This document shows positions 4,764 to 64,000 of a stretch of DNA of 64,000 nucleotides, piece by piece. The position numbers were made by a program, and so were the translations under genes. Below the pieces are notes generated by a model, which saw only the letters and a list, made by a program, of their open reading frames with translations, searched no databases and was not told where the DNA came from. Origin of the DNA: Trichomonas vaginalis G3 (lineage: Eukaryota > Parabasalia > Trichomonadida > Trichomonadidae); the NCBI RefSeq assembly GCF_026262505.1, contig NC_067208.1, forward strand, positions 18,981,962 to 19,045,961. The letters are read 5' to 3'. How positions within the stretch are numbered: the stretch's first letter is position 1; the number at the start of each line of letters is the position of its first letter.

Positions 4764-6041
4764 GCATTTCTATACCATGCGTAAACTGTCATGTAAGGTG
4801 CATATAGTCTTTACTTTGTCCCGTTGTTTGCGTATACCCTGAAACGCGATGTGTATGGTTTCCTCCTCCCTCAGTGTTACTCCAGTAACAATCTATAGCA
4901 AACTTAACGTTGTCTTTAACATCATATCCTTTACCTTTTATCATTCCTGACCAATCCCAATATCTATGCTTATGCCAACCTGCTTGAGATGTACTTAAAT
5001 CTATGTAGTGACTATGCGCAGGTAAATTTTCACCTGAAATCGTTTTACTTCCACCTGTTTCCTTTGAAGAGTTTGCACAATACAAAAACCTGTCGACTAT
5101 TTGAGTCCAAGTTCCAAAACCAAGTACTACTTCTGGTTTGGTAGAGTTCATTGACGTATAAATAGAACCTATAGGATATACTGTTTGAAGTATTTCTGTC
5201 TTTAACGTTTGAAGCTCTGTTTTGTCTGCTTTTTTATCTAACTCATCGTTAACATATGTTTTGTCAGCTTTGTTGTCATATAAATCTTGAGCAGTGAATT
5301 TAACTTTGTTTTCATCCTCCATGACAAAAACATTTCTACATCTAGTGTATTTCATCGTTGTTATGTCTTCATCCGATGTTAAACCTTGTGGAAAGTTAGG
5401 AGGTTTCCAATTTAATACATCCCCACCAGTTCCATCAGGTTCTTCAACCGTTCCTGCAATATTTTCTATACCAACAGTTGCGAAGAAATCGTGTGTATGT
5501 CCAACGTCACTTTTCCTGTTTAAGGTTTCTTGTAAGTTTGTAATATTTGCAATGGTATGTGTATGAGTCTTTTTAGAATATTCTTTGTCAGCTCTTGTCA
5601 CTTCACTTGACATTTTATTGTCAACATATGTTTTATCCGCTTTGTCATCTAACATTTCTTGAAGTTCATCTACGTCATAGATGTTATGTGTATGATGTTT
5701 TTGTGGGTATGTTCTATCTGTCCATGCGAGAATATAGTCTCTTGTTGCATCTACATACTCTTTGTCAGCTTTGTTGTCAATATCTGCCTTCAAAAGAAGT
5801 TCATCTATAGGTTTCTCGTTTAAAGTTCTTTTTGTTGGATTTATAAAACAGTATGGTTCTTACTGTCTTGAAACAGAAACTCGTCTGTCAATGGGTTTAT
5901 CGTCAGTTTTAAGTTTCCTTCTTTCAATGACTCAGATATCTTAGAATAGTTTGAAAAGTTTGTTGTGTTCTTATTTAGAGCTTGCAAAATGAGTTGTCGG
6001 TTGTGTTGTATTTCTCTCATAGACGCTGTTTCATTTGACAT
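4760..6041 (-). pseudogene. Phage-like trimeric fibre protein, broken
   Basis: Homologue of the intact fibre at 20945-22408. It has an N-terminal anchor (MSNETASMREIQHNRQ), repeats of the KADKxYVD / HTH type, and a C-terminal collar-like domain starting YPIGSIYTSMNSTKPE. Frames break near 5841 and again near 4805, where a C is missing before the final PPYMTVYAWYR segment. It carries only one copy of the 22-residue HTHTIANITNLQ repeat (B has four) and has a different stalk block (YILAWTDRTYPQKHHTHN) from B, so stalk modules have been exchanged. Confidence 0.9.
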
Positions 6042-8656: not shown

Positions 8657-8722
8657 AAACTTCATTTATACTAAACATCAACATCAGGGCTAGAAGGCAC
8701 GAAGTGCCTGGAAGCCCCACTA

Positions 8723-18229: not shown

Positions 18230-18302
18230 AAAAAAAAAAAAAAAAAGGTATTGGGGCTTCCAGGGCTGCGCCCCTCTAGCCCCCTGAAGATGTTTAGTAT
18301 AA
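18230..18302. repeat. Left terminal inverted repeat of Maverick B
   Basis: 17 A, then GGTATTGGGGCTTCCAGGG and on to ATGTTTAGTATAA. Mirrored at 42616-42679 with one mismatch (GGTATT versus GGCATT) and a shorter A tract. It contains a GC-rich hairpin. Confidence 0.92.
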
Positions 18303-42615: not shown

Positions 42616-42679
42616 TTATACTAAACATCTTCAGGGGGCTAGAGGGGCGCAGCCCTGGAAGCCCCAATGCCTTTTTTTT
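42616..42679. repeat. Right terminal inverted repeat of Maverick B
   Basis: Reverse complement of 18247-18302 with one mismatch plus a T tract. Inside is GGGGC-GCA-GCCC. TTATGC follows at 42680-42685 as the second copy of the target duplication. Confidence 0.92.
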
Positions 42680-47900: not shown

Positions 47901-48696
47901 ACATCTTTATTTCAGTAAGATTCTTTATGTTTGTCAAGAAGAAGTCATAGTGCATTTCAACAATACCTGCAGCATTTGCTTCTATCTCTGATATAAAGTT
48001 CTCCTTCAAGAGCTGATGTAGTAATGTTCCAATATTATTGAGGTTTAACGTAGAACATTCATACTTTCCACCAAGTTTATAACATACCATCCATCTTTGT
48101 TGGGAGTTTATTTTAATCTTCTCTAAGAGTCTCATGAAAACCTTACCGAAATGTTTGTGTAAGTAGTCTCTGTTTGGTTCATCTAAAGCTCGATGTTAAA
48201 GTCAATGAGTCTATTGCCTGTCTTAACATTCCTCTTCCTATTCTCTTCATCTTTCTTTAACCATCTCTCACCTTCTTTTGGTTGTCGTCAATGAACGAAG
48301 GACATCGTTAGCTTGCGAACTTGTTCTATAGCGCTCTTAAACATCTCTCTTCTCTGTTGTTTCAGTGTGTCGTTCTTCTTCTTGTTTCACCAACGTTTGC
48401 ATTTGTTATGTCAAACATTTCTCTTCTTACTTCATGAGGTACTGAACGTCTATGATATAAGTCAATAGCAACGTCATTTAACGGAAATGCTCTTGCATGG
48501 ACTTCGTCCTCGCCGCGTTGCGGCTTTATGAACTCATGAATTCTATCATAACTTATTGCACCATTATAGTCATTGAGGATGTCAGCGAGTGCTTTTTTGT
48601 TTGTCGCGTAATGCTTTGCAACATCTATGTTTAGCTTCTGTAAGAAGTAGTTGTTTTATTTCCGAGTGTTTCTAACTTAGACAACTTCCGATACAT
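44942..48696 (-). pseudogene. Family B DNA polymerase, heavily broken (element C lineage)
   Basis: About 1,250 codons in many frames. Recognisable pieces from the start: MYRKLSKLEH region (48696), NCFVYACIQAGVNEETIDHM with VRDFPQSK (47430-47610), an exonuclease-like FFADFECSTDG (about 46990), canonical motif A DFDAVSLYPSAIARLY (46145-46200), and motif C QDCDSMHIF (about 45425-45450). It ends KTSFIRKLKF. Unlike the B polymerase, it had both the exonuclease region and the normal DxDS motif. A second copy of its 5' end starts at 63435 on the other strand. Confidence 0.9.
48499..48524. repeat. Double hairpin inside the PolB remnant
   Basis: GGAC-TTC-GTCC then TC then GCCGC-GTT-GCGGC; the same element as 63602-63627 on the other strand. 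It is part of the coding sequence (PQRGEDEV). Confidence 0.85.
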
Positions 48697-48789
48697 CTTT
48701 TAGTAGGAAATAAAAAAAATATTTTTTGAAAAAAAGTAGATTAGATTTTTTCAAGTTATTTTTCAAAATAATTTAATATTTTTATTTTA

Positions 48790-49263
48790 ATGAAACACAT
48801 GCAAGATTGCAAGTTCTTTCATACAATGCTCTCGCTACTGCCATCAAGAATGAGTTCAATAATGCTTTCAAATGTTAATGTTATCTTTAACAAGAAGTTT
48901 GTGAAAGAATCTAAGTGTTGGTCAGTATGTCAGACCATTAGCTATCGTCATTGACCGCAAACGTTATACTTCACAAGAGTTAGCAGTAGTTTTTGAAACA
49001 AAGAGTTTCTTCGTGAATGTCAAAGATATCATTATACTGTCATAAAGAACTCTAACGTTGACTTCTTCAGTATTGCTTTAAATCTTTCCGAACAGAAAGA
49101 ATATAAGAAAGGTGAAACATCTGTGAAATATTATCCTTCATCTCTGAAGACAATAACGAACAAAGATGTTATACAGAAATTCTTACCAAAGGTTGAAGAA
49201 GCTTCTATTGACATTGACGAAGGAAGTGAAATGGTTGAAGAAATTGACCCTGAAGCTTTATAA
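48790..49263 (+). pseudogene. SSB-like 157-residue protein, broken copy
   Basis: Inverted duplicate of the intact gene at 62871-63344. It starts MKHMQDCKFF, then the frame is lost by a missing T; further indels occur near 48915 and 49020. The end EEIDPEAL and stop is retained. It is divergent from the PolB remnant, with about 93 bp between starts. Confidence 0.88.
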
Positions 49264-49289
49264 GAAAATTTATTTTTGAATAACTGATG

Positions 49290-49520
49290 GTGTCACCACG
49301 TCACTATGTGTCACCAGGTTAATTAACTTCTCTTAAAAATGATGACAACATGACATTTAGACAACAGCATGGGTTGAATGCAAAAATATTTTTAGGAGAG
49401 AATGCAGCATTTATGAATTATTTTTGAAGAACTGAAAGTGTCACCACGTCACCACGTCACCAGGTTAATTAACTTCTTTTAAAAATGATGACAACATGAC
49501 ATTTAGACATCACAGCAGGA
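49290..49520 (+). repeat. Box 1, C-type, two direct copies
   Basis: GTCACCACG iterons, CACCAGGTTAATTAACTTCT, AAAAATGATGACAACATGACATTTAGAC at 49290-49375 and again at 49438-49520. Same core as the box in B but with GTCACCACG in place of GGTCCCTCG. They sit just downstream of the helicase gene. Confidence 0.88.
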
Positions 49521-49549
49521 TTAATGCAAAAATAAATTCAAATCATACT

Positions 49550-51862
49550 TTATAAAGCTTCATTTACAGGTATTTCATCGTCAGTAAATGAATCCTCATT
49601 ATCGTTTGGTTCAACCTGTTTATATAATCCTTTCATTTCTTCTTTCAAAACATAACACCATGTTTGTTTACCATCTATTCTTCTCTGTTTCCTTTCACAT
49701 TTATCCTTAATGCTCATTTGAAAGTTTTTGTCTTTCATGTCTGATGGTTTGCAGAATAGAGCATTTTTACACGTCATACCTGCACACAATTCATCATAAT
49801 GTGTATTTATCCATACATCTAAAGGATTTGTTGATAATTCTATTAAATCTTGTTTGGCTTCAGTCATCGGTATGATTCGTACATTAAATGATGAAAGGTC
49901 GTAATTGATAAAATATGTTAAAAGGTTATCATAAAATTCCTTTGTGCATGAATTCATCAAATTCTTGAAATAATCAAATTGACCCTTGAATTTACCATTA
50001 ACTCTTAAAACTACGTATCTTCTGTCTCCAACTTCAATTTTGACAGGGTAGACGTTGTTAGTTACGAAAATGAAGTTTGCAACGTTCTGAGCAGTTCTTC
50101 TGGGTTGATTCTTTTCATTAATTCTAATCTCATTATCCGTAATAATTGATTTCAAAGCGTTGAAGTTTGCGAGTCTGTCTTCACCTACATTCTTGAGTTC
50201 ATTAAGTACAAGAAACATTTTATTCTCAACTACTGAGTTGAAATTACCCGTTAGCTCACTTATTTCGGTAATGTTTTTACATGAATAACCAGCGAGAAGT
50301 TCAGAAATAATGTCTGTAAATCTGTTTTTACCTGTTCCCTGAAGTCCTTTCAAAATAATTGCTGTTTCATTCTTGATTCCTGGATGTTGAATCATTGATG
50401 CAATCCAGCCGAGAAGGTATTTATACACTTCATCGTTATTATCACAAATGGCTTCTTTAATGAAATTCATAAACATCTCAATTTTTGAGTAATCAGGCTT
50501 TTCGAGAACGTTGTATTTATAACCTTGAAACGTTGAGAAAACATCTGGGGAATCAGATTTAAACCAAACACCCTTAACGGTTAATGAGGATAATTGATTT
50601 AGTAGTACGTCCCATGCTGTTATGGTTTTACCTTCTTCTTTAAATAATTTAATCATTTTGAGTGACTCTTTCATGTTTGATTGAAGAACGAATGATATTT
50701 GATTCATTTTATCGTGTATGTTGTAATCTTTCTGAATGAAATATTTATTTCCACAATCTACAAAACGGATTACACGTGATAAATCCTCAATTACTTCAGA
50801 ACTGTTTTTATACTGATGATTTTCAGCCTTGCGTCTAATATCTGTTATCAAAAACGAGTCATCAAGTTTTATATCAAATGTTATTTTTGGCTTACGTAAT
50901 AAAGGTAAAACGTATTCATCATAATATTCCTTTGGATATAGTTTTAGAATCTTCACTAAAACAAATGGAGAAGTCATTAAATGTGCATATCTACTACGTG
51001 CTTTTTCAAAATTACTTTTTGCATTTTCAGTTAAATTGCAGAAGTTATAAACGTTATCGTATGCTTCATTAATTAAATGATTATGTAACGAATTAATTGC
51101 TTGAAACAGTGTGAATAATGTAACTTCTTTTTCTAAATTCATGTTTCCACCGTCATTATGTACTTCAAAATCACTAATACCATCGACTATGCTTTGAGCT
51201 AGTTTATCGTCAATGTTTACATCTTTGTTTTCATTCATGATAGTCTTTATTTCTTCGTTCTTCTGTTCAACTCTTACCTTAATATTCAAATCATTTAATA
51301 TATCATTCACTGTTCTAGTTAATGTTGAATCATAACTTCCACGAATGAATGAGTATGTATTGATTGGTTCTGTTGCATTCTTGCGAACTCTTGAATCAGC
51401 CATAACCACTAATGAACGTTTTGAATCATCAATAGAAGTCATGATATCAATATCATAATCATTGCAGGAATAGCATTTAATCATTCTGTTCGAAACTGCA
51501 TAGAAGAAATTAGTGTTGCAATAAATGTGAAGACCTCCTGAAGCGGTTTTAACGATAACATCTTTATCCGAAAGTTTTGATAAAATATCTTTTCTAACCG
51601 TTTCTTTAAGTTCATCATTGTATGATTTATTGATATCAACATCTATAATCGTTAAATTTGATATTTTATTTACTAATAAAGCCGTACCAGTTTTCCTTCC
51701 TCTTCCTCCATCGTGTTTGAGGTAGTTATGTAAATCAATCTTGTTTTCACCAATTCTTTCGTTGAGGGTTTTAGTTTCTGCCACAACTAATTCCTCAGCT
51801 AATGAATCAATAACTTTTTCATCAGAAACGATATAGTTGCTGTTATTGTTTGTTGCTGTCAT
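49550..51862 (-). CDS. Prim-Pol (AEP) / SF3 helicase fusion, 770 residues
   Basis: Intact. N-terminal Prim-Pol domain: LTIIDVDINK (metal-binding DxD, about 71-78), VKTASGGLHIYC (about 103-113, the sGGxHxY motif), then a CNDYDIDIM region. The middle is helical. C-terminal SF3/D5 helicase: Walker A ILKGLQGTGKNRF (about 498-510), B motif MFLVLNELKN, and the C motif region NFIFVTNNVYPVKIEVGDRRYVVLRV with an Arg finger. Such fusions prime and unwind DNA in NCLDVs, virophages and some Polintons. Two box 1 copies flank it on each side, so they may mark a replication origin or regulate it. The B relative lacks the Prim-Pol half. Confidence 0.92.
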   Translation of the reverse strand: MTATNNNSNYIVSDEKVIDSLAEELVVAETKTLNERIGENKIDLHNYLKHDGGRGRKTGTALLVNKISNLTIIDVDINKSYNDELKETVRKDILSKLSDKDVIVKTASGGLHIYCNTNFFYAVSNRMIKCYSCNDYDIDIMTSIDDSKRSLVVMADSRVRKNATEPINTYSFIRGSYDSTLTRTVNDILNDLNIKVRVEQKNEEIKTIMNENKDVNIDDKLAQSIVDGISDFEVHNDGGNMNLEKEVTLFTLFQAINSLHNHLINEAYDNVYNFCNLTENAKSNFEKARSRYAHLMTSPFVLVKILKLYPKEYYDEYVLPLLRKPKITFDIKLDDSFLITDIRRKAENHQYKNSSEVIEDLSRVIRFVDCGNKYFIQKDYNIHDKMNQISFVLQSNMKESLKMIKLFKEEGKTITAWDVLLNQLSSLTVKGVWFKSDSPDVFSTFQGYKYNVLEKPDYSKIEMFMNFIKEAICDNNDEVYKYLLGWIASMIQHPGIKNETAIILKGLQGTGKNRFTDIISELLAGYSCKNITEISELTGNFNSVVENKMFLVLNELKNVGEDRLANFNALKSIITDNEIRINEKNQPRRTAQNVANFIFVTNNVYPVKIEVGDRRYVVLRVNGKFKGQFDYFKNLMNSCTKEFYDNLLTYFINYDLSSFNVRIIPMTEAKQDLIELSTNPLDVWINTHYDELCAGMTCKNALFCKPSDMKDKNFQMSIKDKCERKQRRIDGKQTWCYVLKEEMKGLYKQVEPNDNEDSFTDDEIPVNEAL

Positions 51863-51935
51863 TTATATAGGAATAAAAAAATAAAAATAATTTTAAAACT
51901 AACTTTATTTTTGGGCTGCATCAAATTTCCGGGAA

Positions 51936-52160
51936 TGTTGTCTAAATGTCATGTTGTCATCATTTTTTAAAGAAGTTAATTAACCAGGTGACACATGGTG
52001 ACGTGGTGACACTGAAAACATTTACGAAAAAATTAATGAAAACATTAACGTAAACATAAACGATAAAATTTATTTCCAGGACTGTTGTCGAAATGTCATG
52101 TTGTCATCATTTTTAAAAGAAGTTAATTAACCTGGTGACATGGTGACGTGGTGACACTGA
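51936..52160 (-). repeat. Box 1, C-type, two reverse copies
   Basis: TGTCATGTTGTCATCATTTTT, AAGAAGTTAATTAACC, AGGTGACA, then GTGACGTGGTGACAC at 51936-52015 and 52083-52160. Mirror of the pair at 49290-49520, so four boxes face each other around the Prim-Pol/helicase gene. The spacer has AAACATTAACG words related to the array at 62442. Confidence 0.85.
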
Positions 52161-52231
52161 AAACATAAACGAAAACATTAACGAAAACATTAATATATAA
52201 AATTCATGAAAATTCATGAGTGTAGAAATGA

Positions 52232-52298
52232 GGGTATAAATACCCATCTACCCTAAAAATTATTTTTGGTCATGGGCTATGCCCCGCCGCTTTGCGTC
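52232..52298. repeat. Box 2-like palindrome and double hairpin
   Basis: GGGTATAAATACCC at 52232-52245, then GGGC-TAT-GCCC (52274-52284) and GCCGC-TTT-GCGTC (52286-52298, one mismatch). Lies between the helicase promoter side and the 3' end of the integrase gene. Confidence 0.75.
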
Positions 52299-52377
52299 TT
52301 TATGTTAAAATAAATGGTACCATTAATGATATCATGACTGTTCTCATTCATGTCTGATTTACATCCAATGAAAAAGT

Positions 52378-53463
52378 TTAGAAGAATTTTCTTATTCTTT
52401 CTGGCTTATTTTTATCTTTCCAGTACTCCCGCTCTAATGGTCCCAGATGTGTTGGCTTCGACTCTCTCAAGTTCTTAGATGGTATAACATCTTCAACGCC
52501 TCCTTCATATCTTACTTTATAAGTGTCATCGTTTATGTTATAGCCAAGTATTTCAATAACCACTCCTCGCTTTGCTTCGTCAATGGTTTCAGCGAGTTTG
52601 CCATTACTACTTTCGACTAATTTATGTCGAGGGTAAAACGCAATAGAGTCGTCGGCAGCTTTTATAAGATATCCATTACCTTGCGTAGAGTCTACGATAT
52701 AATAATTTCGACTTAACCTTAAACGTTTCTTTGTCAACGGTTTGTCGTCAAGAACTACACGAACTTTTGTTCCAGGAATGAGGGTAAATTGTGTTGAATT
52801 TCTGATATTTTGTGTTTGGCTTCGTTTCTTTTGTATATACTTTTCTTCTTGTTGTTGTGTCATTGAATTTGGTGTATGTCCTGTTGTAGAGTGTGTTGAG
52901 GAATTATATACTTCGAGAAAATGTTTCATTGTTTCTTCGGTAAAGTCTCGCTCTTGGTTTAAATCTCTGAGCGTTCTTATGAAGCGGTTTATGATGCCGA
53001 GTATGTTATGGTTATGGTCTTCAGTAGTGTAGTGAGTTATGTTATGCTTAATGAGAAATTCTGTGATTTCATTACTGAGGTATGCACCGTCTTGGTCTGA
53101 TGTTAATGAAGTGGGATGATGTTCTGCCACGAACGTCTGCAAAACTCTTAAAACTTCATGAGTTCATTTATTTTTCATTGGATATGCATATGCTTTGCGA
53201 GTGTTAACATTAATGAAGATGAGGAATGGTTTATGTCCTCCTTTTCTGCTTTGAATGAGAGTGTCAAATTGGTATGCGTCAGGAGCGTTGGAGTAAATTG
53301 GTAAAAAGTAGTCGTAAGGGTTTATTTTTGTTTGATGTACAACATTTTTGTCAAAGAACCTTTTCACTTCAGCTCTGTTAGTAAATCCCCAACTCTTTGC
53401 AGCTTCATTGAATTTCTTAAATGACCTCCATGGATGTTGTTCGAATACTTCTTTCAAGCTCAT
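52378..53463 (-). pseudogene. DDE integrase with chromo-like tail, one in-frame TGA
   Basis: The two open pieces are in the same frame, separated only by TGA at 53164-53166 (...AYPMKNK, stop, THEVLRVLQTFV...). First Asp in YQFDTLIQ, second in TSDQDGAYL; 35 residues on, GIINRF has Asn where Glu is expected. The tail from about residue 300 (RGVVIEILGYNINDDTYKVRYEGGVEDVIPSKNLRE) looks like a chromo/Tudor-type barrel, known in some integrases for chromatin targeting and absent in the B integrase. Without read-through the enzyme would be split. Confidence 0.88.
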
Positions 53464-53497
53464 TTATGTAAAGTTAAAGATTTTATTCAAGACGGTA

Positions 53498-53522
53498 AGC
53501 CTTGACCCAAAGGGTCTAGGCT
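53498..53522. terminator. Strong stem-loop after the fibre stop codon
   Basis: AGCCT-T-GACCC-AAA-GGGTC-T-AGGCT, an 11-bp stem with one mismatch, 10 bp past the fibre gene stop and before the integrase gene on the same strand. It may be an RNA end signal or a member of the hairpin family. Confidence 0.5.
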
Positions 53523-53531
53523 CAAGCGCGT

Positions 53532-55118
53532 TCATTGAACGCGGTACCATGCGAATACAGTCACAAATGGTGGCATATAATCTGCACCCGAGCCTGTTGG
53601 ATTTGTTGTGAAAGTATGGACATGATTTCCTCCTGGTTCAGTTGGTCGAAAAGTCTTTTTTGCTGCATTGTTATAAGATGGAGATAAAACGTCATTGCCA
53701 GCTTCATAGTCTGAGTTGTATAATGGGTGGTCTCTTAATGAGTGGCTATGGTCGCCAGAAAAGTTTGTCGTTCCTGTATGAGTGTGCGCAGGTAAGTTTG
53801 CTTCTTTAATTTTCTTCGAACCTCCTGTTTGCTTTGAATAGTTAGCACAGTATAAGAATTTATCTACAATCTGCTTCCACGTACCAAAACCTAAAACTGT
53901 TGCTGGATTTGTTGAATTCATCGACGTATAAATAGAGCCTATAGGATATATGGTTTGAAGAATCTGAGCCTTCATTGTTTGAAGTTCATGTTTAACGTTT
54001 ATAACTGTATTGCCATCTTCAATATTTATATTGTTTGTTATTAAACCATTAGGAAAAGTAGGAGGATAAATTCTTTGTTCTTGTACAGTTGCACCGTTTC
54101 TTTCCTGTTTTTTGTTACTATTTCGATGCATGCTTTAATTTCTTTAATCTTGATTGTTTGAAATTCTTCATGTGTATGGTTCTTGTCGGCTTTTCCATTA
54201 AGCGCAGCATTTACTTCCGACTTCTTTGCATAATTTTCATCTACATAAGTTTTGTCAGCTTTCTTATCTAACATTGCTGGTAGTTCGTATGCTTCAAAGT
54301 TTCTGGCATGACCTTCAATGTTCATACATCTGTTATCTAAATTGTTTAGTGTATCTTTTACGCTTGTACTTGGATTCTCTAAAGGTGCACTTGAACCAAG
54401 GGTATAGTTCAATATTATGTCGTCTGCTCTAACAGTAGTGAAGGATTCATGTGTATGGTTCTTGTCAGCTTTACTATTTAATGTAGCTTGAAGTTCATTT
54501 ATATCGGAGATATTGTGTTTATGAGATTTCAAAACTTTGTTCGTTGCGTCAAGTTCATCTTTGTCAGCTTTACTTTTAATAGCATCTTCAAAAGTTATTT
54601 TTGCCTTAACTCTCAAAGCAAATCTTGGTTCAACTAATACACCGTTAACAGAGAAGTATGAAGCATAAATTTCATCGTTATAACCAAATGCTTCTGGTGC
54701 TTTACCTGTGTCATACTGTACAGTACAGTGTATGTCATAACCTTTAGCACGAATGTATTTATATCTTCTTTCATTAACATCTTTTGTCTTCACTTCTTCT
54801 TCAGTTCGTGTTAAATATCCATGGTAGTCCGTTATAATCTGTTCGTCTGAACTTATATAATGAACATGGCTTTTATCTGCTTTTTCGGCTAATTTCTCTT
54901 CTATCTCATTTATTTCAAGTTCATGCCTACCACCACCCCCGAAGAAGTATTTTTCTTCAGCTCTTGAAGAACGTCCACTTCGCCATCTTTGGTGTCAATA
55001 ATGAACTTTGAGTTAAAACCTTTCCTGTCTTAATGGATGTTTGTAAAACTTCTTCTTCACCGTGTTCGGGGTCATGGTCGTCATCATATCTTGTGAAATC
55101 AGAGATGTTGTCATACAT
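53532..55118 (-). pseudogene. Phage-like fibre protein of C, frameshifted
   Basis: Starts MYDNISDFTRYDDDHD at 55118, overlapping the previous stop by 8 bases. Frames change near 55010, 54960, 54800 and 54060. Blocks: KADKSHVHYIS, SKADKDELDATNK, HKHNISDINELQATLNSKADKN, NHTHESF, KADKTYVDENYAKKSE, then the C-terminal domain YPIGSIYTSMNSTNPATVLGFGTW...NLPAHTH...HSHSLRDH...GNHVHTF...MPPFVTVFAWYR. The same architecture as the B fibre with different stalk and loops, so it could bind a different receptor. Confidence 0.88.
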
Positions 55119-56448
55119 TAAGCATATCTGTCTCAAAAGTTCTGCTATTTGAAACTGGAACGAAAGATATTACAGAACTTTCATCATCTCCTAAAGTCAA
55201 GTCTGCTTTCTTAAGTATTTCTTGAATGTATGCAATGAGAACAGAGTACCTTGGAAAATATTCGAACAATATTTCATTAGCTTGTTGGTTTGGTGGTTCT
55301 TCTGGAGTTTCTGTTGTTTCAGTTCCTTCTGTAGGTTCTGTTGGAGTTTTCTGCATCTCTTGATTCAATGCTCTTGCTCTCAAAGACCTAAATGTTAGAG
55401 CACCAGGTTTTACAAAGGACTTTATAAATGCTTTAATAGTTCCTGGTAAGTTATTGTTAGCATTAAGTAAGTTTCTTATGCTTCCATCATGTACGTCCAT
55501 AGCACTATGTAAAAAATCTATACTTTTCTTGTAGTCAGCAATAGACTTGACTGTGATTTTTTAAAGATTTGTCAATACCTTTAAGCCAATCTTCATGCAT
55601 GTCTGATACTGAGCCAAGAATATCAATTTGCTTCCTTTAGTGTATTTTGTGCTTCTCGTAAAGTATCCAATCCCGTACGTGCATTGTTTGCTATACGTCT
55701 TACAGTATCTATTTGACTCCTTGTTTCTTGCATCCAACCAGATAAAGTTTTTAATAGTATCCGAACCATTTGAAATGAAGTTCAAAGCATTTTTAACGTC
55801 ATCTAAAACTTCTTCACCAAGTACTGCCCATATCTTTCCGATTTGGTATTGAAGAACTCCATATGAAGCAGCTGTTAAACCAGTATTTATAAGGTTCCAT
55901 ATCCATGATTTAGCAGTTTTTCCATCCTTTCCATCTTCACCATCCAAACCGTTTTCGCCTTGAGGTCCTTGTATTCCTTGTATTCCTTGTATTCCTTGTG
56001 GTCCTTGAGGTCCAGTGTCACCCTTCTCTCCTTTCAGTTCATCTTTATGTTCGTTATAATATTCTAATGTCATAAGGTGTACATCATTACTGCTACCAGC
56101 AACGCCGAGAATTTGTTTCTCATTCATGACTAAATTCTTTAGGCATTTAATGTTGTCGTCAAATCGAAAGCTCTTTAACAATTCAATGAGAACATTTAAT
56201 ACTTTCACTAATGAGGCATCTACTGTAGAATTTATATATTGCACCGTTCCATCATTTATGATAGGAACTTTACTTATTGTAATGAATGGGTCATAAGTGT
56301 TAAAAGTATCGAAATCAATGACTTTTTTAGTTTTTCCATCGTCAATGACTAAATCATTGCCTTCAATGGTTAAAGTTGAGTTTTCGTTTACTAGTTCAAG
56401 TGCTCTTCTTGCTTCATTTGTTTCATACGCATATGCAGCAATAGTCAT
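55111..56448 (-). pseudogene. Collagen-like fibrous protein, frameshifted
   Basis: Starts MTIAAYAYETNEARRALELVN at 56448. Residues about 138-180 are Gly-X-Y triplets (GEKGDTGPQGPQGIQGIQGIQ...DGK), then helical segments. After a frameshift near 55720 the coiled coil TVRRIANNARTGLDTLREAQN is in another frame; another shift near 55560 leads to the piece 55111-55500 (MDVHDGSIRNLL...), which has a proline/threonine/glutamate linker. It lies directly upstream of the fibre gene, so it is probably a second surface-fibre component. Collagen-like virion fibres are known in giant viruses and phages. Confidence 0.8.
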
Positions 56449-56465
56449 ATTTTAATGAGAATAAA

Positions 56466-57230
56466 ATGTTGTTCTATTTGCAAAGTACAGACCCAAACGA
56501 ATACGGGACAGTAAAGCTACAAACAAACTTAGGACTTCAGAATGAAGCACTTGCTTTCAGAGTTGTTGACTTCAATACTATCGCAACTTTTGTCATAACA
56601 GATGAAACAGATTTCATAGAGATTGAAATAGATGACAAAAGAAGTTTTATAACATTTCCTAACAGAGCCGAGTACAGAATAGCTAAAATTGCTGGAGTCA
56701 TAAATACTCTCATAAATGAAGAAACTATTGACAACATAGATGTCGAACTCTCTTCTGAGGGAACATTGAAGTTCAGTTATGCGAAGGAGTTTAAGATAAC
56801 ACGAATGAGTCATAGAGTTCAATTGCTTCTGGGTGCATACCATATGCAACTACCTTTGAAAAGTGTTAGTGGAGTTATTGAGATGAAATCTGTTCCATAC
56901 GTATGTTATGGCAATTGTTTGTACATTGAGTCTAAAATAGCTAATGTCACAGGTATTTCAGGAGTTAATAGTAAAGGTTCAGTAGAATATAAATCCTTCT
57001 GTTATGAAGTAAATTCAATGTTCATTCCAAACGTTCCTGTCATAGCAACTCATTTAGGTAAATGGGTTCGCATTAGTCCTCATAATTTGAAAGACATGCA
57101 ATTCAGACTTGTTGACTTTCAAGGAGAGCCTGTAGAACTGAAGGCACCAGTGCGAATGACTGTTGAAGTTGACTTTTTAGAAAATATTAAATGCAACAGC
57201 TTACAAGAGAACTCAGAGCTAAAAATATAA
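56466..57230 (+). CDS. Candidate minor capsid protein (254 residues)
   Basis: Intact, beta-rich throughout: MLFYLQSTDPNEYGTVKLQ...YRIAKIAGVINTLI...SHRVQLLLGAYHMQLPL...VPYVCYGNCLYIESKIANVTG...VIATHLGKWVRISPHNLKDMQFRLVDFQGEPVELKAPVRMTVEVDF. The C-terminal block matches the pattern in the broken B gene 35890-36695. A single jelly-roll minor capsid role fits the neighbours (CCG-motif protein, packaging ATPase) and Polinton gene content. It is divergent from the collagen-like gene with only 17 bp between the start codons. Confidence 0.65.
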   Translation: MLFYLQSTDPNEYGTVKLQTNLGLQNEALAFRVVDFNTIATFVITDETDFIEIEIDDKRSFITFPNRAEYRIAKIAGVINTLINEETIDNIDVELSSEGTLKFSYAKEFKITRMSHRVQLLLGAYHMQLPLKSVSGVIEMKSVPYVCYGNCLYIESKIANVTGISGVNSKGSVEYKSFCYEVNSMFIPNVPVIATHLGKWVRISPHNLKDMQFRLVDFQGEPVELKAPVRMTVEVDFLENIKCNSLQENSELKI

Positions 57231-57433
57231 AGTATGAATGTTATGTATTAGGTCATGAACTTTGGTTGTTGCTGTTTGATGAAACAAATGAGTTAGTTAT
57301 GTCAGTTAAGAGAACAGAAAAATATTGTGTTAGTGAAAACTGCACCAAGTCAATAAGATTAGGTTTGCATTATGAAGATGAGTTCGATACTGTTGAAGAA
57401 GTTTTGGATAGATATTACAAATTGCTAACTTGA
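57191..57433 (+). CDS. Small unknown protein overlapping the capsid gene end
   Basis: 80 residues, MQQLTRELRAKNIKYECYVLGHELWLLLFDETNELVMSVK..., ending DTVEEVLDRYYKLLT. It starts 40 bases before the end of the previous gene in another frame, so translation is probably coupled. Possibly the counterpart of 37297-37715 in B by position and size. A double hairpin follows the stop. Function unknown. Confidence 0.6.
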   Translation: MQQLTRELRAKNIKYECYVLGHELWLLLFDETNELVMSVKRTEKYCVSENCTKSIRLGLHYEDEFDTVEEVLDRYYKLLT

Positions 57434-57448
57434 AATTTTTTGACTGAC

Positions 57449-57474
57449 GGCGCAAAGCGCCAAGACCGAAGGTC
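57449..57474. repeat. Double hairpin between convergent genes
   Basis: GGCGC-AAA-GCGCC, AA, GACC-GAA-GGTC. It lies between the stop at 57433 and the stop of the opposite gene at 57484, a typical terminator place, but it is also a member of the hairpin family found inside genes at 60418 and 63602. Confidence 0.85.
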
Positions 57475-57483
57475 CTGACTGCT

Positions 57484-58098
57484 TTAATTTACTAAAACAT
57501 ATTTCAAGCAAAGTTTATATTCTGTTGAAAGTTTTGTATATTCATTCGAATATTTATACTTAAACTCAACTCCTGTAGTTCCTGGAGTTTCAATGATGCG
57601 GATGTTACCTATTTTCATGAATAGTGGAGTTTGACCACAGCATTCGATTTCAGGGTCGAGATGGTCAATGACACATTGCTTTCCTGTTATTCGTGATATA
57701 ACATTTTCTAAATCCTCCTTTGTTAGAATTATTTGGTTCTTGCTTATAAGATTTACCAAAAGCTTCTTATCGTCTTTGAGTAAAATTGTTTGGTATAACT
57801 GAAGAAGGTAATGGTCTACGTTATCTGAAGGATTTGTTTGAACATTTGTGTAAGGATTGTCGTTGGCTTCTCTTGAAAGAATTTGGTCCAGTGGTGGATA
57901 CTCTAACTTAACATCTGATGTAGCGTTAGCGTTTGATGCTGAGTTTAAATTCACGGATTTCAGTTCTGGTTCTTTTTCTTTCAAACACTCTGAACTATAG
58001 TTCTTTATGACAATATTGTTTGTCGTTCGTGAGTCAACATTTGATGTTGGTTCAATTGGAACATTAACGGCACCAGCTAAGATGGATTTGCTTCTCAT
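57484..58098 (-). CDS. Conserved CCG-motif protein (C version, 204 residues)
   Basis: Disordered, asparagine- and serine-rich N-terminal 100 residues, then a helix (YLLQLYQTILLKDDKKLLVNLI), then DPEIECCGQTPLFMKIGNIRIIETPG...VEFKYKYSNEY. The last block aligns with the B protein 36700-37278. Both adjoin the minor-capsid candidate, so the pair is a conserved module. It is divergent from 58124, sharing a CATATAGAATAAAAACC promoter region. Confidence 0.75.
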   Translation of the reverse strand: MRSKSILAGAVNVPIEPTSNVDSRTTNNIVIKNYSSECLKEKEPELKSVNLNSASNANATSDVKLEYPPLDQILSREANDNPYTNVQTNPSDNVDHYLLQLYQTILLKDDKKLLVNLISKNQIILTKEDLENVISRITGKQCVIDHLDPEIECCGQTPLFMKIGNIRIIETPGTTGVEFKYKYSNEYTKLSTEYKLCLKYVLVN

Positions 58099-58123
58099 TT
58101 CATATAGAATAAAAACCTTTTAT

Positions 58124-58525
58124 ATGTATGAAATGAACAATATACTCGACAAGGGTTTGAATGTAAAGCTAACGAATGAAAATATTGTTGAATTCACTGA
58201 GACAGGAGCTGTGTATAAAGATGTAGAACTACTGAACAAAAGAGCTAAGGGAAGAAGCAGGAACATGAACAAAGGGTGGAAGCCTATAAAAATTTATGTC
58301 AATGATGGCTCAGGAGGTTCAAACATAAAGTATGCAGAAAGTTATAGAGTTTATGCTCGCAAAGGTGAAAAGCCTTCATTTAAGAACAGCTATTCTAACG
58401 CATATCCTCAAAAGCTAACGGATGGGGAAGTGGATGATATGAATGACAGCAAAAATATTAACAGAAATGGCGACAGAGATGCATGGAATTTGTTTACCAT
58501 CAGTCAATTGAAGGTTAAACTTTAA
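58124..58525 (+). CDS. Unknown basic protein (133 residues)
   Basis: Start at 58124 (MYEMNNILDKG) or 58133; a longer frame reaching into the divergent gene is unlikely. It is rich in Lys/Arg and Asn (NKRAKGRSRNMNKGWKPIKIYVNDGSGGSNIKYAESYRVYARKGEKPSFKNSYSNAY) with an acidic NGDRDAWNLF end. Overlaps the end of the convergent ATPase by 4 bases. Could be a DNA-associated core protein; no family recognised. Confidence 0.55.
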   Translation: MYEMNNILDKGLNVKLTNENIVEFTETGAVYKDVELLNKRAKGRSRNMNKGWKPIKIYVNDGSGGSNIKYAESYRVYARKGEKPSFKNSYSNAYPQKLTDGEVDDMNDSKNINRNGDRDAWNLFTISQLKVKL

Positions 58526-59409
58526 AACAATGTTGGTCGTTCCCATGGAATATTTTTGACTTTAATGGTATTAGTCATGATATGAATCTCAAGGTATGAA
58601 CGAGGAGAGATGAGAGACTTATATGCTTCCCAAATTTCTTCAAAAGGTAATGTTATACCTGACTGTTTCCAAATGAGTTCAATATCATAACGTGAGAAAC
58701 CTTGAAAGATAACGAAGTCGGTTATGAGACGTTTTATGTTTAAAGCAAGAAAACGCCATGTTTGCATAAGTATTGCTACAGTTAAATGGTAATGTCTGAC
58801 TTTAGTTATGATGTTAGCTAATGGTGAGTCAGGCTTTGAAACTAAACCTTTTCCGGCGAAGTCGTCGCAAACGAGCAGAGTGTTTGAAGGATATTTTTTG
58901 AAGGGGTATTTTGAAAGTTTTGATAGAATGTAGTTTGTCAGTCGTTTCATATCGTAAACTCCTGAGTATTGACGTAAGTGGTGTTTGCCAATAATTCTTT
59001 CCATCTCCTCAGAAGTCTTTTGCATTCCTGACTGTATAAATTCAACGATGGCATAATATTTCCTCTTACGTCGAATGTAACGTTGAAGAAATTCAATGAG
59101 TTCACTGTCTGGAACTTTAACGACAGAGGCTTGAACTTTTGACATAAATGTTTTCGCTGTTGAATACATAGAGTCTGAAGTTGCTGATATAATGATTTGG
59201 TCATAGTAAGAGTCGTTTCCTAAACGCTCTGTTATGAGTATATGACGAATTAAATTAAATGTCTTACCTGAACCCATCTTTCCACAATAGAAATAAACAC
59301 CATTTGAACAGAACTCATAGTCCTTACTGAAAGGAAGAATGAGAGAACTGTTGAGCTTTTCACTGCTTTCATTCATGTCTTCATCTACGTCATGTATTAA
59401 ATGCTTCAT
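58522..59409 (-). CDS. FtsK/A32-type genome-packaging ATPase, intact (C)
   Basis: 295 residues. Walker A GKMGSGKTFNL at about 43-53, Walker B SNTLLVCDDFAGKG at about 183-196, and a following sensor-like region VAILMQTWRF. C-terminal part (RLITDFVIFQGFSRYDIELIW) is shared with the B ATPase. The only intact packaging ATPase in the window. The enzyme would drive element DNA into a capsid. It is divergent from the gene at 59426, with 16 bp between start codons. Confidence 0.93.
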   Translation of the reverse strand: MKHLIHDVDEDMNESSEKLNSSLILPFSKDYEFCSNGVYFYCGKMGSGKTFNLIRHILITERLGNDSYYDQIIISATSDSMYSTAKTFMSKVQASVVKVPDSELIEFLQRYIRRKRKYYAIVEFIQSGMQKTSEEMERIIGKHHLRQYSGVYDMKRLTNYILSKLSKYPFKKYPSNTLLVCDDFAGKGLVSKPDSPLANIITKVRHYHLTVAILMQTWRFLALNIKRLITDFVIFQGFSRYDIELIWKQSGITLPFEEIWEAYKSLISPRSYLEIHIMTNTIKVKNIPWERPTLF

Positions 59410-59425
59410 TTTATCTCCATTAAAA

Positions 59426-60307
59426 ATGCAAGTCAGAAATATTCAGAACATAGCACCGAGTCTAACTGACAAGAGTATAAAGATATACTATGAACATGTT
59501 ATGATGAAACCAACCAAAATTCAAGAAAGTCAGTATACTTATGAATATCCAAGACACTGGGTAGAGTATGTAGGAGGTGAGAAAGCTATTGAAATCAGAC
59601 AGGTTCGAAGTATTCCAGCAGGAAGAACAATATTATTGAAGAACTTTAATGTTTTGAGATATAATGATGAAACAAAGAAGCAAGATAGTTTCCCTGTTGC
59701 TGTGTATGTGAACTTAGATACAGGAGATGACATGAAAGTTTTTAATACAAAGCTTCAAACGGTAGTGAGAGAACAACTGACTGCGGAAGGGCATCCATTA
59801 CCTTCAGAAGTTACCATAGCATATAATTTTGAAACAAACTCAATAGATTTTAAAGTCATCTCTGCAAAGAAGTCAGGTTTTACATTTAATGAAGCAGATG
59901 TATATTCGAATGAAAACTTCAAAGCTATTGCATGGTTAGATAATGACGATTGCTTTAAGAAAATCTTTAAATTCAGTGACTCAAAGATGTCAATAGATGA
60001 CCTTCGTGGAATGTTACCATCGACGTTTACAGTAGAAGGTTCAGCAGGATTGCTTACAAGATTGTCAATTGGTGGTATTTGATCTCGTGAAAACATTGTT
60101 ATAAAATCCAGTATAAGTGAATTTGCTGAAGAATCTATATTATGTCTTTCAAACTACATGTATTCGCCGCCGAAGCATTATAGTATAACAAACTTTGTCA
60201 GTAAGTTTAACATAAGACTTGTCGAACCTTCTTCAATGAAAGATGTTGTGCTACCAAAAGACGGAAAGGATGGACTCATTATTGAGATGATTTTAATAGC
60301 ATATTAA
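59426..60307 (+). pseudogene. C relative of the 282-residue conserved protein, one in-frame TGA
   Basis: Start ATG 59426. It matches the A/B family by YTYEYPRHWVEY, KAIEIRQVRSI, YNFETNSIDFKV, FKAIAWL and, beyond the TGA at 60080-60082, SILCLSNYMYSPPKHY...LIIEMILIAY. The two parts are in the same frame, so only the TGA interrupts a 293-residue protein. The next gene starts right after its TAA. Role unknown; shared by all three elements. Confidence 0.75.
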
Positions 60308-60532
60308 ATGAGCTTGTTCTTGAAGGTCATTCATGATGAAATAACTGTTGTAGAAGATGTTAGCAATTGTTCAGACATTTTGAAGCGTATAGATGATATA
60401 AGAAATAAGTTAGATAGACCGCAAAGTGGTGAGGGCGAAGCCCGTGAGAACGCTTATGTTTCATTGACTTTCTCCAGTAACGAGAACTTTTATGAGATAA
60501 TATTGAAGAGAGATGATTTTAATATGGTGTAA
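60308..60532 (+). CDS. Unknown 74-residue protein containing a hairpin insert
   Basis: MSLFLKVIHDEITVVEDVSNCSDILKRIDDIRNKLDRPQSGEGEARENAYVSLTFSSNENFYEIILKRDDFNMV. The segment DRPQSGEGEAREN is encoded by the double hairpin 60418-60443 and looks inserted between two beta/helix parts. Starts directly after the previous stop and ends directly before the next ATG, so it is part of a tight operon. No family recognised. Confidence 0.55.
   Translation: MSLFLKVIHDEITVVEDVSNCSDILKRIDDIRNKLDRPQSGEGEARENAYVSLTFSSNENFYEIILKRDDFNMV
60418..60443. repeat. Double hairpin in frame inside 60308-60532
   Basis: ACCGC-AAA-GTGGT (one G-T pair), GA, GGGC-GAA-GCCC. Same architecture as 63602-63627 with different stem bases; encodes RPQSGEGEA against KPQRGEDEV. 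Confidence 0.85.
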
Positions 60533-61059
60533 ATGGTAGCTTGGGCAGCTTTAGGCGCAATGGGAACAAAAGCATTAGCATTTGGAGCAAAAGCACTTGG
60601 AGCTTATGACGCAGTAAATAAAATGAGTGGAGGAAGGTTTCGAAGACATTAGATGCAAATAAAGGGAAGATTGGAGGCTGGGTTGCAAAGAAGTTAAGAT
60701 TAAATAAAACAGGGCTCATAAATAAAGCATCCAATTTGGTTGCGACTGAGTCAGAAAATGCTTTAGGAAAGGACGATGAGTTTGCAAAACACGCAAAAGA
60801 CTTTAATGACCAGATGAAAGGTGAAACAATGCATTTAAATAGAGTCGATGGAACTAAAGAAAATGTTTCTTCTCCACCAGCGGTTTATCCATACGGACCT
60901 TATGGAATGTATGGAAACCCTTATGAACGACCATTTGACCCATTGACTGGTGGAAGTAATTGGTATCATTATGGACGAAGAAGAAAGACAGTCAAGTTGG
61001 AGACAGACGTGAAGAAAGCAACTAAAAAGAAACCAAGGAAGAGAGTTATAAAGCAATGA
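60533..61059 (+). pseudogene. Amphipathic minor virion-type protein of C, one frameshift
   Basis: MVAWAALGAMGTKALAFGAKALGAYDAVNKMSGG is a small-residue hydrophobic N-terminus like that of 23381-23782. A one-base loss near 60640 ends the first frame; the other continues KVSKTLDANKGKIGGWVAKKLR...VYPYGPYGMYGNPYERPFDPLTGGSNWYHYGRRRK to a very basic end (KKATKKKPRKRVIKQ). It is probably a capsid-internal protein that contacts membrane and DNA; this is inferred from composition. Confidence 0.6.
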
Positions 61060-61204
61060 ATTCAACAGGGTGAAAAAAGAGGTGAGATTTCACCACTTCA
61101 CCTAAATTTATTTTTGTGCTATGTTTTCATACGTGTGAGGGTGGTGATATCATTAATTTTTAAGTTTATTTTTAAATAAATGTGGGAACAAAAATAAAGC
61201 ATAT

Positions 61205-61561
61205 CTACTCAACAGGAATGAGACCCTTACTGACTATGTATTCGTTTAATGCTTGATGAAAACAATGGTACATATTATCGTATGGGTATACACAACGTCT
61301 GTTTCCATCGTCGTCGTATATGTAGAGCTCAAATCCAGTCCAACCTTCTTTTGTACAATATGTAGCTTTATTTAAGTATGCATTTATGTAGATAAGGCAA
61401 TTTTCTTCATCGCTCCAGAAATAATTTTTCGTCATTGTTGAAATAGTTTTCGTTCCTCTGCGACCATAAGGAATGTATGCAATGAACTTTGCGTCATAAG
61501 GGATTGTAATATATTCAGGGTTTCTTTCATCCTCAATGGGTCTGTCTTTGTTAAAATGCAT
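61205..61561 (-). CDS. Unknown 118-residue protein
   Basis: MHFNKDRPIEDERNPEYITIPYDAKFIAYIPYGRRGTKTISTMTKNYFWSDEENCLIYINAYL...GWTGFELYIYDDDGNRRCVYPYDNMYHCFHQALNEYIVSKGLIPVE. Alpha/beta, rich in Tyr, with four Cys. Intact. It occupies the same place next to the inverted 61030-61190 segment as 43646-43867 does on the left. No family recognised. Confidence 0.55.
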   Translation of the reverse strand: MHFNKDRPIEDERNPEYITIPYDAKFIAYIPYGRRGTKTISTMTKNYFWSDEENCLIYINAYLNKATYCTKEGWTGFELYIYDDDGNRRCVYPYDNMYHCFHQALNEYIVSKGLIPVE

Positions 61562-62007
61562 GTTTCTCAGTTTTACTTGAGTTTTGAATAGTTCACGGAA
61601 ACGTTCTGGGAAAGAGTCTATCTCATACCGAAATGGCTCACCAAAAAGGTGACATTTTTGGCGCCAATAATTTGATTTTTCTGATTCTTTCTATTTAGAT
61701 ATATTTATTTAATATTCATATTCCTTTATATTGCCTCATATTATTTCCCATTTTTAATCATATTATACAAATCTTTAATAATTTTTAATGTTTTGAGCTT
61801 CAAAATCTTGTTCTAACTATTTTCATTCATATATCCTAGAAAAAATCAAAAAGTTTTTTAGAAATAAAAATGTTTGTATGTAAAGTATTGAAAATATTCT
61901 AGATGAGAAGACATTCTCCAGAAAGTATTTCATGAATTTTCATAAAAGATAAAAATAAAGTTAGTTTTATTTTTATTTATTTTTTTATTTTGTATGTAAA
62001 GACAGTA
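61562..62007. other. Non-coding AT-rich stretch before a GTAAAGACAG promoter
   Basis: No gene supported. It ends in TTATTTTTTTATTTTGTATGTAAAGACAG, the same promoter class as the KilA-N genes in B. Confidence 0.6.
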
Positions 62008-62346
62008 ATGTCAAACATTGAGTTTGAAACAGTTAGAAAGATTGACAATGACACCAAAGTGGTTAGAATTGGTGATTTAAACGTAAGATACTGTAAGAAA
62101 TACAACAAATATTCTTTGTCAGACATTATAACGCCTTCTGGAAAGAAAACAAAGGACTGGGTTAGAATTGCTTCTACTCAAAGAAGACTTAACATTACTG
62201 AAGGAAAAAATAACAGAATATTTCGACAACTTCAAAGAGGAAGAATAAAAAAAAATCTCGTCGGGTGCCACGTTAGGACCATAGTGGAGAAAACCATGAT
62301 AAAAAACAAAACCTTTCGTCAAGTTTATTTTGTTTTTACCATTTAA
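62008..62346 (+). pseudogene. Chimeric shortened KilA-N gene
   Basis: The first 60 or so codons (MSNIEFETVRKIDND...ASTQRR) match the N-terminus of 30735-31349. Then LNITEGKNNRIFRQLQRGRIKK is DNA homologous to the 3' end of 31438-32244 (ACTGAAGGAAAA...GACAACTTCAAAGAGGAAGA) read in a different frame. A deletion between two neighbouring KilA-N genes would produce exactly this. The start at 62008 follows the promoter box. Confidence 0.8.
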
Positions 62347-62441
62347 TTGTTTCCATAAACGCTCCATGTCGAACATAATTGACGAAGAGAGAATCGTCTG
62401 ATCGTCAAGTTTATTTTGTTTTTACCATTTAATTGTTTCCA

Positions 62442-62749
62442 TTAACGATAACATTAACGATAACATAAACGATAACATAAACGATAACATTAACGATAAC
62501 ATTAACGATAACATTAACGATAACATTAACGATAACATAAACGATAACATAAACGATAACATTAACGATAACATAAACGATAACATAAACGATAACATAA
62601 ACGATAACATTAACGATAACATAAACGATAACATTAACGATAACATAAATGCTCCATGTCAATTATGTTCGACACTGATAACATTAACGATAACATAAAC
62701 GATAACATTAACGATAACATAAACGATAACATTAACGATAACATTCATT
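62442..62749. repeat. 12-bp tandem array (AACATWAACGAT), two blocks
   Basis: Blocks at 62442-62646 and 62676-62745 with A/T alternation at one position. Between and before them is an inverted pair, ATGTCGAACATAATTGAC (about 62365) and its complement (about 62655), and a 40-bp direct repeat (62318-62357, 62403-62442). Confidence 0.92.
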
Positions 62750-62769
62750 TTTGCATTAATCCTGCTGTG

Positions 62770-62855
62770 TTGTCAAAATGTCATGTTGTCATCATTTTTA
62801 AGAGAAGTTAATTAACCTGGTGACACATAGTGACGTGGTGACACCATCAGTTATT
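62770..62855 (-). repeat. Box 1, C-type, reverse copy
   Basis: TGTCAAAATGTCATGTTGTCATCATTTTTAAGAGAAGTTAATTAACC with GGTGACAC iterons. Mirror of the box at 49290 in the inverted duplication, located after the SSB-like gene. Confidence 0.85.
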
Positions 62856-62870
62856 CAAAAATAAATTTTC

Positions 62871-63344
62871 TTATAAAGCTTCAGGGTCAATTTCTTCAAC
62901 CATTTCACTTCCTTCGTCAATGTCAATAGAAGCTTCTTCAACCTTTGGTAAGAATTTCTGTATAACATCTTTGTTCGTTATTGTCTTCAGAGATGAAGGA
63001 TAATATTTCACAGATGTTTCACCTTTCTTATATTCTTTCTGTTCGGAAAGATTTAAAGCAATACTGAAGAAGTCAACGTTAGAGTTCTTTATGACAGTAT
63101 AATGAGTATCTTTGACATTCACGAAGAAACTCTTTTGTTTCAAAACTACTGCTAACTCTTGTGAAGTATAACGTTTGCGGTCAATGACGATAGCTAATGG
63201 TCTGACATACTGACCAAACTTAGATTCTTTCACAAACTTCTTGTTAAAGATAACATTAACATTTGAAGCATTATTGAACTCATTCTTGATGGCAGTAGCG
63301 AGAGCATTGTATGAAAAGAACTTGCAATCTTGCATGTGTTTCAT
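62871..63344 (-). CDS. Candidate single-stranded DNA-binding protein of C (157 residues)
   Basis: MKHMQDCKFFSYNALATAIKNEFNNASNVNVIFNKKFVKES... alternating strands (RPLAIVIDRKRYTSQELAVVL, FFVNVKDTHYTVIKNSNVDFFSIAL, ETSVKYYPSSLKTI), then an acidic tail SIDIDEGSEMVEEIDPEAL. This layout, a compact beta body with an acidic tail ending in a hydrophobic residue, is that of SSB proteins. It is divergent from PolB (90 bp), matching a replication role. Intact here; the inverted copy at 48790 is broken. Confidence 0.55.
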   Translation of the reverse strand: MKHMQDCKFFSYNALATAIKNEFNNASNVNVIFNKKFVKESKFGQYVRPLAIVIDRKRYTSQELAVVLKQKSFFVNVKDTHYTVIKNSNVDFFSIALNLSEQKEYKKGETSVKYYPSSLKTITNKDVIQKFLPKVEEASIDIDEGSEMVEEIDPEAL

Positions 63345-63434
63345 TAAAATAAAAATATTAAATTATTTTGAAAAATAACTTGAAAAAATCTAATCTACTT
63401 TTTTCAAAAAATATTTTTTTATTTCCTACTAAAG

Positions 63435-64000
63435 ATGTATCGGAAGTTGTCTAAGTTAGAACACTCGGAAATAAAACAACTTCTTACAGAAGCTAACATA
63501 GATGTTGCAAAACATTACGCGACAAACAAAAAAGCACTCGCTGACATCCTCAATGACTATAATGGTGCAATAAGTTATGATAGAATTCATGAGTTCATAA
63601 AGCCGCAACGCGGCGAGGACGAAGTCCATGCAAGAGCATTTCCGTTAAATGACGTTGCTATTGACTTATATCATAGACGTTCAGTACCTCATGAAGTAAG
63701 AAGAGAAATGTTTGACATAACAAATGCAAACGTTGGTGAAACAAGAAGAAGAGACGACACACTGAAACAACAGAGAAGAGAGATGTTTAAGAGCGCTATA
63801 GAACAAGTTCGCAAAGCTAACGATGTCCTTCGTTCCATTGACGACAACAAAAGAAGGTGAGAGATGGTTAAAGAAAGATGAAGAGAATAGGAAGAGGAAT
63901 GTTAAGACAGGCAATAGACTCATTGACTTTAACATCGAAGCTTTAGATGAACCAAACAGAGACTACTTACACAAACATTTCGGTAAGGTTTTCATGAGAC
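63435..64000 (+). pseudogene. Start of family B DNA polymerase (C), runs off the window
   Basis: MYRKLSKLEHSEIKQLLTEANI... is open for 141 codons; after about 63855 the continuation (GERWLKKDEENRKRNV...LHKHFGKVFMRL) is in another frame, so at least one base is changed. The region matches the left remnant 48130-48696 in inverted form. The predicted N-terminus is helical and basic; the catalytic parts lie outside the window. The double hairpin 63602-63627 is inside the coding sequence. Confidence 0.85.
63602..63627. repeat. Double hairpin in frame inside PolB N-terminus
   Basis: GCCGC-AAC-GCGGC, GA, GGAC-GAA-GTCC. Encodes PQRGEDEV. Same arrangement as at 60418 and 57449. Confidence 0.88.

Follow-up and report, generated by a model that had tools for sequence, protein, structure and literature searches.

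What are the pairs of tiny hairpins that recur, within a single stretch of Trichomonas vaginalis G3 DNA, both inside unrelated genes and between genes? The stretch, hereafter the window, comprises 64,000 nucleotides (nt) of contig NC_067208.1 (C6:18981962-19045961, in an assembly of 181 Mb), and a first-pass annotation of it had located such double hairpins at 57449, 60418, 63602, 48499 and 52274 and had taken them for a mobile palindrome family, belonging to a Maverick lineage, whose copies insert into genes in frame. All five are present at these places, and homologous genes without the element exist, which supports that proposal. We put at roughly 80% the probability that the double hairpin is a minimal non-autonomous insertion element, that is, a palindrome pair inserted as a unit at A-rich targets in T. 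vaginalis Mavericks.

The unit is GC-rich and consists of two triloop hairpins, 26 nt plus one base, which gives 27 nt or nine codons. At 63602..63628 on the forward strand it reads GCCGC-AAC-GCGGC, GA, GGAC-GAA-GTCC, +A and lies in frame in DNA polymerase B1 (PolB1) as the peptide KPQRGEDEV. The N-terminal part of this polymerase is open for 141 residues in the window (63435..63860, + strand), and PolB1 is open over 1259 residues in another copy (L187:88-3864), which matches PF03175, DNA polymerase B, with an E-value of 5.9e-38. The PolB1 element recurs on the reverse strand at 48498..48524, where the start of the polymerase has its inverted-repeat twin; both lie in an inverted repeat of 258 nt with 100% identity (48374-48631 / 63495-63752), so one insertion was copied and the 48499 element is no separate event. 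Gene X (60308..60532, + strand; 74 residues in the window copy, 65 in translated empty copies) carries ACCGC-AAA-GTGGT, GA, GGGC-GAA-GCCC, +G at 60418..60444 (+), again in frame (RPQSGEGEAR). GGCGC-AAA-GCGCC, AA, GACC-GAA-GGTC, +C occupies the short gap between two convergent genes at 57449..57475 (+). The remaining member, GACGC-AAA-GCGGC, G, GGGC-ATA-GCCC at 52274..52298 (-), is slightly irregular: read on the reverse strand, its stem 1 contains one A.G mismatch and its linker is 1 nt long. It is intergenic, 3' of an open frame (52378-52929, -) that we take, by position and prior knowledge and without a family match, to be an integrase; at this INT site the second hairpin of other copies is GGAC-GAA-GTCC. 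From their gene set and known biology the host elements are Mavericks: an A32-like ATPase (PF04665, E-value 3.3e-07) and a helicase/primase-like protein (PF19263, E-value 1.5e-20) are encoded in the region alongside DNA polymerase B.

Enrichment over shuffled sequence, which the first-pass annotation had made a test of the family, is evident. The strict geometry 5-3-5 / 2 / 4-3-4, with G-U pairs allowed and at least six G-C pairs, is found on the forward strand at exactly 57449, 60418 and 63602, that is, three times, against none in 100 first-order shuffles of the window. A looser scan with at least seven G-C pairs gave 14 matches over both strands and none in each of six shuffles; here a palindrome may count once per strand, and lower thresholds let in unrelated hairpin pairs. 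Triloops and inner stem pairs are conserved between sites, and the stems covary. The idea that structure and not sequence is kept thus stands in part: the paired changes are real, but 14 of 26 columns are invariant over seven positions, and sequence is kept too. Paired cells form standard pairs in 95.2% of cases over these positions against 82.2% in shuffles, a value that none of 500 shuffles reaches, and none of 500 matches the covariation score; with only seven sequences, which are mutually related, the shuffle control is indicative. At the pair 18-24 all four Watson-Crick types are present, and the covariation signal is lost when the partner is slid. Each of six forms folds, as single-stranded DNA, into a pair of hairpins (z-scores -1.4 to -4.0); for 60418 and 52274 the folding is equalled by 14 and 13 of 200 shuffles, respectively. 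A genome search with G-C forbidden at the pair next to the innermost one of stem 1 gave four matches, compared with three for the reversed-pattern control. A known structured RNA or terminator was rejected as a candidate: Rfam gave no match at gathering score in the 18 kb searched (window 46000-64000).

Comparison of homologous sites points to insertion. Filled and empty copies differ in length by 27 nt at four Maverick positions, three of them with many copies in either state and one represented by a single pair. At the PolB1 site, the predicted empty sequence TTCATAAA^TGCAAG occurs in 61 of 69 flank-search matches, and exactly the nine residues are missing from P0001 and P0002, protein relatives with 74% and 63% identity; a third, with 43% identity, has a larger gap at this place and is uninformative. 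For gene X the predicted empty sequence is found in 93 of the 100 matches listed out of 162. Of 28 matches at 57449, 15 have the empty site (GACTGACTGACTGC), 11 a form shorter by one TGAC unit and two other forms, and in PolB2, the second polymerase, the 27 nt are present in one member of a copy pair and absent from the other. Not all homologous PolB1, PolB2 and gene X copies carry the segment, as the refutation set out in the first-pass annotation would require. A second group of elements, 29-36 nt long, enters A^GGTGA or a similar sequence, in one case (gene Z) in frame. Filled copies are rare at the sites L035 (1/23, gap 0 in the other 22), L041 (1/9), L048 (1/6) and L014 (1/4). The target of the 31-nt insertion in L035 corresponds to 61067..61068 (+) and is empty in the window. 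So is the site at 63024..63025 (-) in gene Z, an open frame at 62871-63344 (-), where one other copy holds a 36-nt in-frame double hairpin (L196 and L207, being the same genome place, are counted as one). Inserts in all empty/filled comparisons measure 27-36 nt, and in-frame insertion has affected the unrelated genes PolB1, PolB2, X and Z. The element also lies within an open frame in L003, L065/L192 and L206, where filled copies alone were examined, and in L191, a divergent polymerase copy, the frame is broken around it. As a separate observation, hairpin 2 of the 31-nt element is closed by a TTT loop in L035 and by AAA in L041 and L048, which amounts to an inversion of that hairpin.

The targets are alike. 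Five positions have the flanks TAAA^TGC, TAAA^TGA (three) and TGAA^TGA, mostly AAA^TGA; elsewhere the flanks are TGAC^TGA at 57449, TAG^TGA in gene X allele A and, for gene Z and the second group, A^GGTGA, A^GGGTGA or A^GGTTA. When five window positions were drawn at random 200,000 times, no draw had four of them sharing a 6-mer. At six positions (PolB1, X alleles A and B, 57449, L065 and the INT site) the 26-nt core is preceded and followed by one and the same base, and a 1-bp target duplication at insertion is likely. A fixed duplication of at least 2 bp, a trait of miniature inverted-repeat elements derived from cut-and-paste transposons, was not found, the compared sites showing 0-1 bp and L014 possibly up to 2. 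The first-pass annotation had noticed one reading frame in otherwise unlike proteins, and this frame is indeed common to PolB1, PolB2, gene X and a fibre gene. Because words of the AAATGA type contain stops in the two other forward frames, a shared frame is expected from the target, and it probably comes from there and not from selection of the peptide. An AlphaFold model of PolB1 residues 1-450, itself weak (mean predicted local distance difference test score, pLDDT, 58.7; four sequences), only suggests that the insert, residues 56-64, is a loop, placing it where a low-confidence stretch (58-107) begins.

Copies are numerous. A pattern with free outer stem positions has 664 matches in the genome and a second, with C, G or T as first base, 1028, while the reversed control has none for either; the two overlap partly, and both fix triloops and inner stem pairs, so that they count those forms only. 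The ACC/ACT form accounts for 83 of the first 100 listed matches to the former, inside gene X in every copy fetched. The first 100 listed for the latter comprise 76 of the GCCGC/GCGGC-AAC form, 12 GGCGC, seven GACGC and five GTCGC. The GCCGC/GCGGC-AAC form lies in PolB1 in 25 of 27 instances examined, the window's two included, and in gene X in two, and an identical 26-nt core is present in unrelated genes. Copies at one site are mostly inherited with the Maverick. A scan of IMG/VR for relatives matched at least 120 stretches; of 122 pattern instances, two pair in both stems: L187, which is from T. vaginalis itself, and L099, taken as a chance match. Another genome pattern, GGAAGATGAAGTT, with 71 matches against five in the reversed control, is unrelated to the hairpins and no part of the element.

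Gene X occurs in several forms. Its alleles are empty, A, B (with another double hairpin), a hybrid of A and B (L016), a form with only hairpin 1, and nested; in the nested alleles, five copies, a double hairpin of 33 or 36 nt sits inside the loop of hairpin 1. The two nested variants are unlike in one hairpin, and GGTC-GTA-GACC of the shorter recurs in PolB2 as hairpin 2. Flanking combinations of single-nucleotide polymorphisms are common to filled and empty alleles (42 allele instances), and all four combinations of filled and empty gene X and PolB1 are present (33, 9, 5 and 1), in a count that covers contig C1 to about 18 Mb, leaves 17 of 67 gene X rows without partner and assigns most GCCGC rows to PolB1 by distance and strand. 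Mavericks therefore frequently exchange homologous sequence, or else gain and lose the element repeatedly, and many copies do not mean many insertions.

The preferred sequence of events would be as follows. The hairpin unit would be inserted at an A-rich target, mostly AAA^TGA (A^GGTGA for the second group), by an activity acting in trans, whether transposition or copying, and would then spread with the Maverick and by homologous exchange between copies; insertion, rather than precise loss, would account for the two states. In coding sequence the insert is presumably tolerated, being a whole number of codons long and falling in a loop. Strand-displacement replication is expected for a protein-primed polymerase, and we suggest only that it would expose single strands on which triloop hairpins could form.

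Several results weigh against this account. Of the five covariation measures, two are weaker: 19 of 500 shuffles equal the count of pairs altered on both sides and 82 that of pair types. The single-base duplication is ambiguous and the flanks are unequal at PolB2 (A/G), where the copy pair differs also by a nearby 10-residue gap. The flank of 57449 is a TGAC repeat, in which slippage too can change length, and a flank search at the INT site (52274) gave no match to an empty site, so that this site is read as fixed or as having changed flanks. Independent insertions are few, about a dozen observed positions and not hundreds. Finally, no mover enzyme was identified, the Y1 transposase domain PF01797 having no match in the assembly (control: found in 5 of 14 genomes).

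It might be supposed that the double hairpins are ancestral in genes and junctions and that empty copies have lost them by precise deletion. Such a loss is plausible in one case, since the single- and double-hairpin forms of gene X differ by a 15-nt segment with GTGAG repeats at its borders, and the INT site, where no empty copy was found, would also fit. However, the empty alleles keep both halves of the target, unlike the outcome of repeat-mediated deletion, the PolB1 relatives at 74% and 63% lack exactly nine residues, one identical 26-nt core recurs across unrelated genes, and the filled state is rare at L035, L041, L048 and L014, which together make general deletion very unlikely. The junction copies admit yet another view, in which an RNA end signal or terminator was selected there and the coding copies are by-products: 57449 lies between convergent genes, and 52274, for which no empty copy was found, lies 3' of an open frame. 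Yet copies of 57449 without the element exist, the family occurs within open reading frames as well (PolB1, PolB2, gene X), and Rfam found nothing in the 18 kb, so that we hold such a role to be highly improbable as the origin of the family.

Two other mechanisms compete with the preferred account. Palindromes favour template switching and slippage, and the hairpins might be made locally in this way by the Maverick polymerase, with no copying between sites. The inverted loops of the 31-nt element and the exchange of single hairpins among gene X alleles agree with this, but it leaves the identical sequences at unrelated sites, the shared triloops and the shared target unexplained; local origin is therefore unlikely, and template switching or slippage may modify the element once it has been inserted. 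The hairpin pairs, a fixed target intact on one side and the lack of clear duplication resemble single-strand DNA transposition of the IS200/IS605 or REP kind. With no Y1 domain in the assembly, an IS200/IS605-type mover was rejected, and the wider idea, for which an unrecognised enzyme is possible, appears quite unlikely.

Other repeats accompany the double hairpins. Two more GC-rich hairpins, GACCC-AAA-GGGTC and CGCGTTC-ATT-GAACGCG, lie side by side at a gene end (53504-53543), and in L207 inverted-orientation GGCGC-AAA-GCGCC / GGACC-GAA-GGTCC pairs at 3975-4003 and 5753-5781 stand beside TGAC repeats and resemble 57449. A repeat of the form GGGGCTAGAG-hairpin-TGGAAGCCCC occurs beside a poly-A/T run at 8695-8709, 18263-18273 and 42645-42655 and near 556 of L008; its inner hairpin varies by copy, AGGCAC-GAA-GTGCCT or GGGC-GCA-GCCC, as if swapped in place. 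The window further contains a tandem array of AACATTAACGAT/AACATAAACGAT units between genes (about 62440-62750) and a very long imperfect inverted repeat at 425-26750, with arms of about 8 kb and pieces 90-99% complementary.

REP/BIME elements with RAYT and IS200/IS605 combine hairpin pairs with a fixed target word. The T. vaginalis element is like them in both respects and unlike them in that its genome assembly has no Y1 transposase. Titles and abstract openings, covering the literature in part, contained no report of elements of this kind from T. vaginalis or Mavericks. We tentatively propose, at somewhat less than even odds, a new class: site-directed mobile palindromes of 27-36 nt, copied in trans into AAA^TGA or A^GGTGA in nuclear virus-like elements by an undescribed enzyme or replication process, which nest, swap modules and add in-frame peptides. 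With hundreds of filled and many empty copies in one nuclear genome, target, length, intermediates and module exchange become directly readable. The palindrome provides a eukaryotic virus-like element with in-frame protein insertions and is apparently a very small mobile DNA able to add a ready-made peptide to a protein such as DNA polymerase, on which the effect of a palindromic insert becomes testable.

Mitochondria are known to harbour mobile double hairpins, and Rickettsia in-frame palindromes; the literature consulted leaves the movement of several of them unsettled (PMC2800124, PMC10969869). Saccharomyces mitochondrial GC clusters are described as short GC-rich palindromes in AT-rich DNA whose position varies by strain, usually non-coding and also present in rps3/VAR1 and rRNA genes, where they alter product size (PMC4464245). 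The T. vaginalis palindrome is likewise GC-rich and optional at homologous sites; unlike the clusters, which measure 30-80 bp and are mitochondrial, it is 27-36 nt long, forms two adjacent triloop hairpins and resides in nuclear transposons, the window and the fetched copies lying on contigs of 20-35 Mb. The Allomyces elements, as cited in PMC2800124, are two adjacent hairpins in genes, with evidence of mobility and a reported lack of flanking duplications. They resemble ours by description in their two adjacent hairpins with varying stems and differ in being mitochondrial and not nuclear. Rickettsia palindromic elements, according to PMC10969869, insert in frame in unrelated genes and add a peptide, as happens in T. 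vaginalis, but measure about 150 bp, in a bacterium, rather than 27-36 nt. By analogy, then, the double hairpin works like GC clusters and the Allomyces and Rickettsia elements, but sits in nuclear Mavericks.
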